This document shows, piece after piece, positions 6,895 through 10,771 of a DNA stretch of 22,323 bases. The DNA is from a virus: IMG/VR virus record IMGVR_UViG_3300009314_000094, positions 1 to 22,323 of that record. One strand, given 5' to 3'. The translations under genes and the position numbers were made by a program. A model generated the notes under the pieces. It was given only the letters and a program-made list of their open reading frames with translations, ran no database searches and was not told where the DNA came from. Every line of letters begins with the position of its first letter. The first letter of the stretch is position 1.

Positions 6895-6898
6895 CCGT
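6868..6898. repeat. 11-bp direct repeat at the giant gene start
   Basis: The plus-strand sequence aacccatccgt occurs at 6868-6878 and again at 6888-6898, exactly 20 nt apart. Each copy contains an ATG on the minus strand (6894 and 6874). Only the one at 6894 is in the giant reading frame. The repeat could be chance or a small duplication at the gene junction. Confidence 0.6.
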
Positions 6899-7506
6899 TA
6901 CACCACCACGCAAACCGTCGGCCCGGACATCGGAACCGGCGGAACTGTCGGCACTCCTACAACTGCACCTGCCCCAGTACCCTGTAACAATAGGCTGGCT
7001 ATTCCAATGCCCAGCCCGGTTGCCATCATGCTGAGGGCTGGCCCCGGCCCCAGAGTCGCGGTCAAGGTCTGCATTAACATACCGACGAGGGAGGCCGAAT
7101 TGGCCACCGTAATCTTCGAGACATCCGCCCCCACCCCGACGCCCGCCGCCGGTCCCACGTACTGGGCCGATGCGTTGAAGGCGGTCGAGATGCCGGTTGA
7201 GATGGCGAGGGCGAGGCTCTGCGCCAGAGGACCCACCATCCCGGCCCCGGCCAGCCCGGCCTGCACCAGTCCCGGATTGGGTGGCACGATGACCTTCGAG
7301 GCCACGGGGTTCACAGCTCCTCCGCCGGACACTCCGGTTGCCAACCCGGTCAAGCCGAGGTTCTGCGGCTGCATGATTCCCCACTGGGAGACTCCGTTTG
7401 CAACCCCGAGCGCCATCCGGTCGTAGTTCACCCCGCCGAAGGAGTGGATGCCCGAAGTCCGCGCCAAGGAGAGCGAGGAGTAGAGGATGCCGGGGTTCAG
7501 TGCCAT
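6898..7506 (-). CDS. Gly/Ala-rich phage protein with internal duplication, function unknown
   Basis: A 202-aa protein. ATG at 7506 is chosen because GAGGAG lies just upstream (7510-7515); the frame stays open to 7545, but that start would overlap the end of the endonuclease gene and lacks such a site. The protein is rich in Gly, Ala, Val, Leu and Ser, with only one cysteine, near the C-terminus. Residues 69-124 and 129-184 are homologous to each other: both begin S-K-x-x-V, have LV about ten residues on, then a GP turn and an amphipathic G-I segment. Residues 30-60 look like part of a third copy. The hydrophobic stretches contain many glycines and look like a repeated fold rather than clear membrane helices. 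It sits between the spike (before the endonuclease insertion) and the giant protein, so it is probably a minor virion or baseplate component. I do not recognise the family. Confidence 0.75.
   Translation of the reverse strand: MALNPGILYSSLSLARTSGIHSFGGVNYDRMALGVANGVSQWGIMQPQNLGLTGLATGVSGGGAVNPVASKVIVPPNPGLVQAGLAGAGMVGPLAQSLALAISTGISTAFNASAQYVGPAAGVGVGADVSKITVANSASLVGMLMQTLTATLGPGPALSMMATGLGIGIASLLLQGTGAGAVVGVPTVPPVPMSGPTVCVVV
6955..7302 (-). repeat. Two-unit protein repeat (period about 60-63 residues) in the 202-aa protein
   Basis: Unit A is residues 69-124 and unit B residues 129-184, both 56 residues long. S70-K71 pairs with S130-K131, L80-V81 with L140-V141, G92-P93 with G155-P156, and G105-I106 with G168-I169, which implies a 3-residue shift in the middle. 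This was aligned by eye. Confidence 0.6.
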
Positions 7507-7509
7507 ATT

Positions 7510-7515
7510 CTCCTC
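7510..7515 (-). promoter_or_regulatory. Shine-Dalgarno site of the 202-aa gene
   Basis: GAGGAG on the minus strand, 3 nt before ATG at 7506. It overlaps the TGA stop of the endonuclease gene (7516-7514), so the two genes are tightly coupled. It decides the start at 7506 over 7545. Confidence 0.7.
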
Positions 7516-8299
7516 AAGGCCCAACGATGTGGGACTCGACGACAAGTCGGCACAACCGGAAGAACTCTTGCTGGTCCATGTCCCATTTCATTTGCTGCAC
7601 CCGCTTGTCCACCCACTGGATGTTCCCTTCGACGTACCCCTTTCTGCTGTCGATTCGGTCTAAAGAAGCGGTCCCCTTCCGCGCCCCGACGGGCGGGAAG
7701 TGAATGGGAAGTCCGGTTAAGGCACACTTTCCGCCCTGCTTCTTGAACAAGTCCCACACCTCTCGTAAGGACACACCGACCTCCAACCCACGAGCTTGGG
7801 CGTTGTTCAGGATGTTGGACCAGAAGGTCTTAGGTATCTTGCCCACACCCTGCCAATTATGCGCCCTCTGCCCCCTCCGGCGACGCCCCATGGCCGAGGC
7901 GGATTCTTTGGCGAGGCAGCCACAACTTCGAGTCGTCCCATTAGAGAGGTTGGATAAAGACACCACTTTCCGTTTCCCGCAATCACAACGACAGTCCCAC
8001 CGAGTCCCCCCTGACTGCGTGCTTCTCTGATTACGACCCTCTACCACGAGCCGCCCGAATCTCTTTCCCACCATCTCTGCTTCAGGAAACGCTCTCCAAG
8101 AAGCCCCCCTCAGACACCCACAGCTTTGCGTGTGGCCGGACCGGACCTTGGTGAGAACTTTGATGACCGAAGCCCCACAGGAGCATTGAAACGTCGCCTG
8201 TGTCCGGCCATTCTTGTGGGGCGGGGCGGCCCCCCGCAGAGTAAGCTCGCCAAACTGCTGCCCAATCAGCTCCTCAACGCTAATTTTCGGCGCACCCAT
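7514..8299 (-). CDS. Free-standing HNH homing endonuclease with two zinc-binding modules
   Basis: A 261-aa protein when started at ATG 8299, which has AAAGGG five bases upstream. An in-frame ATG at 8341 would add 14 residues but has no ribosome site. Two related N-terminal modules each have a G-x-x-FG-x-L-x-V/L strand, a Cys cluster and an SCGC end: residues 12-63 (Cys39, 41, 60, 62) and 78-129 (Cys103, 105, 107, 126, 128). The Arg-rich 139-145 is probably a linker. The HNH-type nuclease core is at about 188-240, with GKCALTG, SLDRIDSRKGY and GNIQWV, then a conserved-looking QMK. Such proteins cut phage DNA at a specific site and spread by homing; cleavage here is inferred from family. It interrupts the structural gene order, its composition looks less GC-rich than its neighbours (by eye), and its last codons mimic the end of the spike gene. 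The core is intact, so it may be active. Confidence 0.87.
   Translation of the reverse strand: MGAPKISVEELIGQQFGELTLRGAAPPHKNGRTQATFQCSCGASVIKVLTKVRSGHTQSCGCLRGASWRAFPEAEMVGKRFGRLVVEGRNQRSTQSGGTRWDCRCDCGKRKVVSLSNLSNGTTRSCGCLAKESASAMGRRRRGQRAHNWQGVGKIPKTFWSNILNNAQARGLEVGVSLREVWDLFKKQGGKCALTGLPIHFPPVGARKGTASLDRIDSRKGYVEGNIQWVDKRVQQMKWDMDQQEFFRLCRLVVESHIVGP
7521..7536 (-). repeat. Imperfect direct repeat, copy at end of HNH gene
   Basis: Minus-strand AGTCCCACATCGTTGG, encoding SHIVG just before the endonuclease stop. It matches the copy at 8352-8367 in 14 of 16 bases. Both differences are synonymous transitions in third codon positions. The two copies lie 831 bp apart and bracket the endonuclease gene. 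Confidence 0.75.
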
Positions 8300-8304
8300 T
8301 GTGA

Positions 8305-8311
8305 CCCTTTC
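8305..8311 (-). promoter_or_regulatory. Probable ribosome binding site of the HNH gene
   Basis: GAAAGGG on the minus strand, five bases before ATG at 8299. The match to the anti-Shine-Dalgarno is moderate. It favours 8299 over the ATG at 8341, which directly follows the spike stop codon and has no purine-rich site. Confidence 0.5.
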
Positions 8312-8344
8312 ACTGTGTTGTCTTGTTAGAGGGCGTCCCATAAA

Positions 8345-10771
8345 CTAACTACCGACGATATGGGACTTGGCTCCCATGCCAAAAGTAGAGAAAGGCAAAT
8401 TCGTGAAGGGGTCGAGCGACCCGGCACAGATGATTGGCCCTTGGTCCGGCCCAGAGATGGGGCCACCGAGATAGACCCCGGAACCTCCCTTGAGCGTGGC
8501 TGTCCCTGCGGCAGAGGAAACCGTGGCCGCCGCCTGACCTTCCATCGTGGCCGTCCCGGCGGATGCCTTCAACGAGACGTTCCCCGCCTTGGCCGCCCCG
8601 GTGATGCCCGATGAACTCAGCTCCATGCTGCTTGTGACTGCCTTGGCCTTCCACACACCGAGCTTCAGGTCGAAGGTCATGTTGCCGACGAGAATCTCCG
8701 TCTTGTGGTTTCCGAGGGTGAACTTTTCTCGCCGGTCCCCCGAGGTATAGGTGACTTTTTCTGCAACCATTCCGGGGAACGCGGGCGAGTAATTCCGCTC
8801 ATGGAGCGGCCCCGAGGTCGGGAGAAGCCCTTTCGGCCCGGCGTAACTTTCTTGGGCCTTCCCGTTGACAGTCTTGTGAAAAGCGTCCGTCGTGAGGGAC
8901 ATCGACTTGGTGGCATTCAGGTCCATATTCTGGTGGGCCGTGACCTGCACCGAGGTCGCGTTGCCGTCGATGATGTTGCCCTTCAGGAACACGGTCTTCT
9001 CGGCCTTCACCCGGACATTGGTGCGCCCTTGGATGTCCACCGACGGCAGGTTGCCGGAGCCTTGGCCCGAACCCGAGACGGACTCCACCTTGTCCGAGGC
9101 GTCCTTCGGCCCTCCGCCCCCGAAAATCTTGACCTGCCCGGCCTCGGACGAGAGGTCGAGACTGTTTTGGCTCCGGGTGCCGAGACTCACATGGCCGTTG
9201 AGCAGCAGTTCGAGTTTCCCGCCCATGCCGAGCTTCAGGCCGCCGTGGAGGTATGCCTCGATGGACGACTCTCCCGGAGGACCCCCGATGGATGCCTTGA
9301 GCTGCCCCTTCTTGTTGAGGGACCAGAACGTCTCCGGGCCGCCGGGTCCGATGGGCGGTGTCAGCTTCATCAGCGTGGCAGCCTGTTCTTCCAGCGGGGT
9401 CGGCTGAACCCCGGACCCCGGAAGAGGGATGTTGGCCGCTTCGAGCCGTGGGGAAGGAGTCGTTCCATCGAAGATAATGGCTTGGAGGGGCAGGCCGTAC
9501 ATGGTCCGGCCCTGCTGGGAGAACGGGTCGTTCCCGACCACCGACCCCATCACGCACTCGATGAAAGGCATGTTCGGCGGCAGCCCCTCGGGAGCTGAGG
9601 ACGGGTCAGTCGAGGGAAGCCGCTCCGCGTCGAACCCGTCCGTCTGCTCGGTGACAGGGAGGCGGCCATCCGAGGTGTGTGTCACGTCGATGCGGTACTC
9701 GGTCAGGGTCGGTTTGTCCGGGTCGAGGTGCGCGTTATCCCGAGACTGGGAGGACACACGGTAGATAATTTTCCCACCGTAGATAGCGTCCGGCTCTTGT
9801 GTGCCGGGGGCCACGAAGCCCGTCTCGTCGATGAATCCGCCGAGACGCATGAACTCGTAGGGGTCGAGGTACGGGTTGTCCCCGAGGAAGCTGCGCCCGA
9901 GATAGCCGCCTTCCGCATCCTTGAGGCCCTTCCGCAGGATACGGGCAGGAGTCAGGAAACCTTCAGGAGACTGCTGGTCTGTCGGCAGGCCAAGGTCACT
10001 GACCGGCTCCTTCGCGGATGCTTGGCGGCTGCCATCCCAAAGATTGTCATCCCCCACCATGGAAGGGTGAAGGGCCAGTGCGTCCCGTTGCACCATCCCG
10101 GCGTAGACTCGCGCCCCAGCAAGAGCTTGGAAACTCTGCAAGGCCCGAAGAATGGCCGCTTGGTCTTGGTCCCGCAGGCGGAACTCATTACCACGCCTGT
10201 TGGCGAGCCGGACGCTTTCGTCCAGAATGAAATCCGCCCCCTGAGACGAGCTGGCCACCACGTTACCGGGCTGGGCGTGCCGGAGTTTGTGTCGGACGCG
10301 GTTGTAGGCACCTTCCGCGAACTGCCGGTCCACAGGGGACTCTTGGTCGAACTCGTCCACTCCGAATTCGCCAGTCGTCAGCCACTCACGACCGGGCCAG
10401 ACTCCGGGGATAATCCACGTCAGAATCACGGGGGAGCGGGTGCCTTGGGAGTTGCTGCTCTCCTGTGGCAGCCAGCCGATGATGCAAGTGTCCCCCACCT
10501 CGGGCATTGCGCCGAAGAAGTGCCTCGCCCCTGCTCCGGGGAAGGTCAACGGGATGGGCACACGCTCGAAGGTGTCGGACGCCCCTGTGAGCGTCTGTAG
10601 AGTGACGTAGAACTCCTCGTAGTCGATGGTGACGACCTTGGCGACCCCCAGACCCCAACCCGTCTCCGGGCGCATCTTCTTGAGGTCGGTCTTCGCCTTG
10701 GTCGTGGTGGAACGCATCGCCCCGCGAGAAACGGTATCCAGCACTCCTACAGGTCTGCGGGTTTCCGGCAT
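8345..10771 (-). CDS. Baseplate central spike protein (gp5/VgrG-type, OB-like N-terminus)
   Basis: An 808-aa protein. ATG at 10771 overlaps the hub gene stop (TGATG), with GAGGAAG four bases upstream. Residues about 35-125 look like the OB-fold domain of gp5-type spikes: a short beta-rich stretch leading to GAMPEVGDTCIIGWLP, the usual P-x-x-GD-x-x-x-x-GW pattern. Residues about 160-300 contain NRRGNEFRLRD and other segments of unknown fold. From about 480 the sequence becomes repetitive and beta-rich (G-K-L-x-L, G-x-V-x-L, V-x-V-x-A steps), as expected for a trimeric needle, ending with AGSLDPFTNLPFSTFGMG and SHIVGS. No lysozyme domain as in T4 gp5 is seen; the enzyme-like domain sits in the neighbouring hub instead. 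By family role it would form the membrane-piercing tip under the hub. The endonuclease gene follows immediately. Confidence 0.75.
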   Translation of the reverse strand: MPETRRPVGVLDTVSRGAMRSTTTKAKTDLKKMRPETGWGLGVAKVVTIDYEEFYVTLQTLTGASDTFERVPIPLTFPGAGARHFFGAMPEVGDTCIIGWLPQESSNSQGTRSPVILTWIIPGVWPGREWLTTGEFGVDEFDQESPVDRQFAEGAYNRVRHKLRHAQPGNVVASSSQGADFILDESVRLANRRGNEFRLRDQDQAAILRALQSFQALAGARVYAGMVQRDALALHPSMVGDDNLWDGSRQASAKEPVSDLGLPTDQQSPEGFLTPARILRKGLKDAEGGYLGRSFLGDNPYLDPYEFMRLGGFIDETGFVAPGTQEPDAIYGGKIIYRVSSQSRDNAHLDPDKPTLTEYRIDVTHTSDGRLPVTEQTDGFDAERLPSTDPSSAPEGLPPNMPFIECVMGSVVGNDPFSQQGRTMYGLPLQAIIFDGTTPSPRLEAANIPLPGSGVQPTPLEEQAATLMKLTPPIGPGGPETFWSLNKKGQLKASIGGPPGESSIEAYLHGGLKLGMGGKLELLLNGHVSLGTRSQNSLDLSSEAGQVKIFGGGGPKDASDKVESVSGSGQGSGNLPSVDIQGRTNVRVKAEKTVFLKGNIIDGNATSVQVTAHQNMDLNATKSMSLTTDAFHKTVNGKAQESYAGPKGLLPTSGPLHERNYSPAFPGMVAEKVTYTSGDRREKFTLGNHKTEILVGNMTFDLKLGVWKAKAVTSSMELSSSGITGAAKAGNVSLKASAGTATMEGQAAATVSSAAGTATLKGGSGVYLGGPISGPDQGPIICAGSLDPFTNLPFSTFGMGAKSHIVGS
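8352..8367 (-). repeat. Imperfect direct repeat, copy at end of spike gene
   Basis: Minus-strand AGTCCCATATCGTCGG, encoding SHIVG at the C-terminus of the spike protein, followed by one serine codon and TAG. It is the partner of the copy at 7521-7536. Confidence 0.75.

Follow-up and report, generated by a model that had tools for sequence, protein, structure and literature searches.

Endings shared by a phage spike gene and an adjacent HNH endonuclease gene point to insertion by exchange of C-termini

Some integrative elements, for example those at tRNA genes, provide a replacement 3' end for the gene they enter and displace the original. Here we examine a 22,323-nucleotide stretch of viral DNA (hereafter the window; positions 1 to 22,323 of IMG/VR record IMGVR_UViG_3300009314_000094), in which a free-standing HNH endonuclease gene follows a phage spike gene and ends in almost the same codons. 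Replacement of a gene's C-terminus has been described for mobile open reading frames (mORFs) of fungal mitochondria, in atp6 of Allomyces and in atp6, atp9, cox2 and nad3 of Glomus; the two atp6 tails are 63.5% identical in DNA and 91% in protein (PMC3630166). The insertions into genes covered by a review of T4-like phages split the host gene, as do mobE in nrdA of Aeh1 and mobA in gene 60 of T4 (PMC2988022).

We consider it very likely (probability about 0.9) that the HNH gene represents a free-standing homing-endonuclease element inserted within the final codons of the spike, whose ending it replaced and whose old ending it captured. A first-pass annotation of the window alone had proposed that a mobile gene entered the 3' end of the spike gene, provided it with a new ending and retained the former one as the C-terminus of the mobile gene's product. 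Homologous loci support this proposal, and in a pair of crAss-like phages the arrangement can be followed base by base.

The window locus and its two endings

The features of the locus are as follows.

8345..10771, minus strand: spike/baseplate phage gene, 808 amino acids, host gene of the element; open reading frame (ORF), with a 71% identical spike in an empty relative (L004)
8345..8374, minus strand: left copy, the spike's current terminal codons GAKSHIVGS and TAG, core match 8352-8367; read as the element-supplied ending
8300..8344, minus strand: short leader from the spike stop to the HNH start, element-borne; not in empty junctions, no Rfam intron
7514..8299, minus strand: free-standing HNH endonuclease gene, 261 amino acids from ATG 8299; PHROG 374 match (E=9.9e-41) and alignments
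7910..8272, minus strand: two zinc-ribbon-like, Cys-rich repeats in the N-terminal part of the HNH protein; CxC/CGC motifs in the alignment, confident in the model
7547..7807, minus strand: HNH nuclease core, with conserved CALTG...ASLDRID...GY...GN.QWV; structural model
7514..7534, minus strand: right copy, the HNH C-terminus SHIVGP and TGA, core match 7521-7536; read as the former spike ending, family homology ending at VVE
7510..7515, minus strand: ribosome site GAGGAG for the next gene; the HNH stop overlaps it
6898..7506, minus strand: conserved next gene, 202 amino acids, ATG at 7504-7506; directly follows the spike in empty relatives

The spike protein ends in GAKSHIVGS and the HNH protein in VVESHIVGP. 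As first noted from the window, the DNA under the common residues is equal at 14 of 16 bases (AGTCCCATATCGTCGG at 8352-8367 and AGTCCCACATCGTTGG at 7521-7536, minus strand), and both differences are synonymous transitions. The stops are in register, with each 16-mer ending seven bases before the end of its stop codon (spike TAG 8345-8347, HNH TGA 7514-7516). The HNH stop also lies, as claimed, inside the ribosome site of the next gene, where TGA 7514-7516 overlaps GAGGAG 7510-7515. An in-register match of 14/16 occurs in 0.5% of random gene-tail pairs drawn from related loci, a figure that overestimates chance because the pool includes homologous spike tails.

We hypothesize that the element consists of a re-spelled host-gene ending, a stop codon and an endonuclease ORF without final codons of its own. 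After insertion, the spike would read into the element's ending (SHIVGS and stop). The native ending, now displaced, and its stop would be read in frame as the C-terminus of the endonuclease (SHIVGP and stop). The ribosome site of the next gene would stay in place, both flanking genes would be kept and the old site would be split. We infer that the HNH protein cleaves the uninterrupted 3' end and then spreads by break repair, and that the re-spelled ending could escape cutting. The re-spelling of the left copy may reflect selection against self-cutting, or merely a diverged donor of the tail. Both the spike and the HNH protein are presumably translated.

The HNH reading frame is open from 8341 (ORF 7514-8341), and ATG 8299 is the more likely start because MGAPK... 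there matches MGARK... of a 63%-identical homologue. A domain search with the spike protein gave only a weak DUF2345-like match. A 99.9% identical sister record of the window likewise has the HNH gene.

Spike junctions in relatives

Alignments of the spike, the next gene and the HNH were used to scan for relatives; about 80 spike loci were kept, and the junction was read in 47 of these (about 38 distinct). In most, the next gene begins a few bases past the spike stop, with no insert. Empty relatives end in GAKxHxVG-type tails, like the two copies in the window, rather than in unrelated endings. An HNH gene of the same kind occupies the junction in four lineages (the window; L159/L161/L178; L140-L142; L167), and in a spike tree computed without the last 14 residues each is sister to an empty lineage (window-L004, L159-L137, L140-L146 and L167-L149/L151), so that four changes are needed. 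Presence/absence polymorphism at one site was thus seen at the spike junction, and it was also seen among crAss-like isolates. The four spike-site HNHs form one clade against 38 relatives from other sites (support 99/95), and they therefore appear to be a site-specific lineage.

Two occupied lineages indicate which of the two endings is old. In L159, the HNH ends TEH-GAKGHIVGA-stop (TAATGG) and the spike GAKAHVIGS-stop (TAG). Among about 33 empty junctions, the best match to this HNH tail is that of the sister L137 (GAKAHVVGA-stop, TGATGG), at 22/27 bases, compared with 17/27 for L159's own spike tail. In L167, the HNH ends AKGHLVTP-stop (TAATG) and the spike GAKGHIITP-stop (TAG); the best empty match to the HNH tail is again a sister (L149, GHLVTP-stop; 14/15 and 21/27), and that of the spike tail is the distant L170. 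Because the HNH tails, and not the spike tails, best match the empty sisters, the HNH appears to hold the native ending and the spike end to be the newcomer. The spike end TAGTTAG occurs in three of the four HNH-bearing lineages and in one (L004) of about 34 empty ones (hypergeometric p 0.002).

A scan of GTDB genomes with the spike returned one empty locus. In L019 (a 38% identical spike in LR745208), the next gene and the tail differ, making it uninformative for the junction comparison. Another spike relative, L144, ends GSPTHILGV-stop and lacks both the usual next gene and an HNH downstream of it.

The crAss-like phage pair and the tails of other genes

PhiCrAssBcn18 (and also Bcn14, Bcn15 and Bcn16) carries an HNH gene of this family after a ribonucleotide reductase gene, and PhiCrAssBcn20 and Bcn1 are without it. 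The empty reductase gene ends GATTGTGGGTATAGTAAATGTTTATAA, which is GATTGTGG followed by GTATAGTAAATGTTTATAATATGAAG (CGYSKCL-stop). In the occupied Bcn18, the reductase ends GATTGTGGCTACTCAAGGTGCAATTAA, which is GATTGTGG followed by CTACTCAAGGTGCAATTAA (CGYSRCN-stop), and the HNH ends GTGGCTGGGTATAGTAAATGTTTATAA (AGYSKCL-stop), or, over a slightly longer stretch, TTAGTGGCTGG followed by GTATAGTAAATGTTTATAATATGAAG (LVAGYSKCL-stop). The flanks of Bcn18 match the empty ones at 741/761 bases on the left (97.4%) and 487/487 on the right (100%). The insert is 576 bp within the last codons of the reductase, and only three bases (TGG) are common to both sides. The element brings a re-spelled YSRCN-stop, in which all shared codons beyond TGG are re-spelled, and the HNH now closes with the reductase's own native final codons and stop. 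As read from the DNA, this pair shows the entire architecture, namely an insert among the final codons, a substitute ending in a new spelling, and the native ending with its stop serving as the endonuclease C-terminus; it is the one pair in which the apparent insertion boundaries can be placed precisely. The occupied and empty forms are present in cultured Bacteroides phages, and the pattern is therefore directly testable.

PhiCrAssBcn17 (L238:1514-1600) has an element-free reductase that is ~97% identical upstream, in which a divergent ending (CSSCGWSRCG-stop) takes the place of the final ~22 codons and ~19 additional bases stand ahead of the next gene. This ending is possibly the scar of an earlier tail exchange. 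Several further Bcn isolates gave similar partial-coverage matches.

HNH tails were also compared with the tails of upstream genes at 63 HNH loci where an upstream gene could be called; the threshold for a match was p<0.01, with all mismatched pairs as the reference. Matches were found at 8/63 loci, with 0.63 expected (binomial 2e-7), and at 6/61 when the two spike loci were left out (binomial p 3e-5). The eight include two reductase cases (L084 and L097). The L094 match is probably due to chance; L094 and L066 were set aside as weak, and cr1_1 was also set aside as its score came solely from a lysine run. The upstream genes include a thymidylate synthase (ThyA; Pfam PF00303; IKYEVAI against IKAEVAV) and a chaperonin (Cpn60; Pfam PF00118; GMNHKY against GLNHKY), and by tblastn also a B12-dependent ribonucleotide reductase and an RNA-ligase-like gene. 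The HNH tails resemble the usual endings of those genes, such as HPAIKAPVAV in an element-free phage ThyA and ACAGGxCEI in phage reductases. Codon choice differs between the copies at 24 of 37 shared residues (seven pairs). No convincing copied tail was found at the other-site loci of S-SKS1, Anedea, MeganTheeKilla, Vibrio phi 1, MA9V-3 and cr111_1.

Homology within the nuclease family (...EF.xLCxxV) stops just short of the copied tail. Beyond this point, the tails vary with the upstream gene (SHIVGP, HGAKGHIVGA, KGHLVTP, NHNPTIKAEVAV, AGGACEIA and HQVLKK). None of the HNHs examined at other loci ends in SHIVG, and several match the tails of other target genes. On these alignments, the copied tail is target-gene-specific and not a feature of the HNH family. 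It is rather likely, though well short of certain, that C-terminus exchange is the way in which a widespread HNH family of phages integrates: the element would carry re-spelled target codons, its ORF would stop at the end of the nuclease core, and captured native codons would complete it. The last residues of the HNH would in that case mark its target gene, and element loss would leave lasting altered gene endings (scars).

Other arrangements were seen at individual loci. A different, shorter CxxC-type endonuclease (L067:3560-4045) follows a phage chaperonin gene and ends in that gene's last residues, GLNHKY, which suggests that more than one nuclease family captures tails. The reductase-site HNH of L097 (2764-3522) has ~50 additional residues between the nuclease core and the tail AGGACEINI, and this element may have taken in additional coding sequence. 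In crAss-like phage cr111_1 (L022:2405-4302), the HNH lies between two annotated thyX pieces, probably an intron or split gene and not tail capture. In Acinetobacter phage XC38 (L233:153-3912) and L230, HNH genes lie between or beside annotated pieces of an RNA polymerase gene.

The window HNH protein is homologous to the PHROG 374 HNH endonucleases over the nuclease core, with 40 members aligned. A model of the nuclease half from the 40-row alignment is of good quality (predicted local distance difference test (pLDDT) 88), and its best PDB match is the HNH enzyme PacI, a weak one (probability 1.00, E=5.7e-3, template-modelling score 0.47). The whole-protein AlphaFold model from 7 rows is poor (pLDDT 58.6). 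A PDB sequence search with the protein found nothing, and a Pfam search found no HNH family. The Cys-rich repeats are the probable DNA-binding part. A search of 294 bacterial genomes with the HNH gave 3 weak matches.

Alternative readings and relation to known systems

Several observations weigh against our reading. About 55 of the 63 family members are without a copied tail, and other insertion modes must therefore exist; the upstream-gene calls at these loci were automatic. The HNH tail of L140 is not an in-frame copy of the spike end, and by eye an out-of-frame remnant is suggested. The first catalytic motif lacks its canonical His, and S-L-D-R is invariant in 40/40 members, with Arg where many HNH enzymes have His. 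For this reason, nuclease activity is a prediction; the Arg appears to be a family-wide substitution, which does not imply loss of activity. The last point is that L004, the nearest empty relative of the window (71%), ends VGS-stop (TAG) like the window's left copy (21/27 bases, against 14/27 for the HNH tail). The first-pass annotation had predicted an empty junction reading SHIVGP-stop-GGAG, and no such junction was found among the empty relatives.

The L004 match would be expected if the assignment in the window were reversed, with the spike end native and the HNH tail acquired elsewhere. We regard this as improbable, given that the L159 and L167 sister comparisons and the crAss-like pair all place the native end on the HNH, and that, apart from L004, only element-bearing spikes have the TAGTTAG end. 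The L004 junction itself (8375-8424) is empty, with an element-type ending GTCGGTAGTTAG and a 9-base spacer, and is a candidate scar of a lost HNH element. Because L004 matches the left copy, the direction of the swap is less certain in the window's own lineage than in general, and would depend there on the lost-element reading of L004.

A target-site duplication, in which insertion merely doubled about 16-27 bases of the spike end and both copies are native, would account for the alike direct repeats in the window (14/16). It is less probable still. In L159, the HNH tail resembles the end of the sister's spike more closely than that of the L159 spike. At the crAss-like locus, duplication is refuted by the TGG-only overlap and by a left copy that is re-spelled although the flanks are 97-100% identical.

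Family relatives do sit inside split genes (the thyX pieces in cr111_1 and a split polA in Bas89), as would be the case if the HNH lay within a group I intron, or within some other element that is spliced out, and the old ending were restored in the mRNA. This is very improbable in the window, as the upstream gene already closes with a complete in-frame copy of its own tail and no Rfam intron was found. The non-coding part is only ~45 bases in the window and 21 bases from reductase stop to HNH start in Bcn18, and a ribozyme core would not fit in so short a space. On this evidence, the HNH ORF lies outside any intron or intein. The match of the two short C-terminal motifs covers just six residues in the window, but chance, convergence or a tail shared throughout the HNH family can be dismissed as its source. 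Two more diverged lineages show the correspondence at the spike site, several other genes have target-specific tails, and HNH relatives elsewhere carry different tails; the comparisons at the spike site, the 63-locus statistics and the crAss-like pair refute this reading.

Insertion with exchange of endings would allow a mobile gene to enter a coding gene without breaking it, whereas known phage insertions into genes split them. The replaced, re-spelled ending and the captured old one bear on how free-standing homing endonucleases could enter harmlessly and on why the occupied allele might not be cut. The pattern recurs at spike, thymidylate synthase, chaperonin, ribonucleotide reductase and RNA-ligase-like genes; the target of an endonuclease could be read from its own last codons, and tail exchange may account for odd gene endings.

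Like the free-standing homing endonucleases of T4-like phages (seg and mob), the element is a compact ORF without intron or intein, situated between conserved genes and patchily distributed (PMC2988022). The T4 genes differ in being intergenic and in cutting hundreds to thousands of bases away, and tail replacement or capture is not described in that review (PMC2988022). Integrative elements of the tRNA type have an integrase and identical att cores, whereas here three bases are shared at the crAss-like site and no integrase was seen; moreover, the displaced end here is coding sequence of the element's own enzyme. A phage case of a tail swap was not found in literature searches with sparse coverage of subscription journals, and the nearest parallel is fungal. 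Fungal mORFs likewise place an endonuclease ORF near the 3' end of a gene, fuse a foreign or re-spelled C-terminus in frame and move the native C-terminus downstream (PMC3630166). They are mitochondrial, encode LAGLIDADG or GIY-YIG enzymes and replace 17 to about 80 codons, whereas the phage elements encode HNH enzymes and replace 5-10. The phage element thus works like a fungal mORF and is not a member of that group. The fungal native tail is described as displaced, and in atp6 and cox2 as unexpressed (PMC3630166), whereas here the native tail and stop form the end of the endonuclease. The C-terminus swap is therefore known from fungal mORFs, and the phage HNH form with its captured native end would be a new variation on it.

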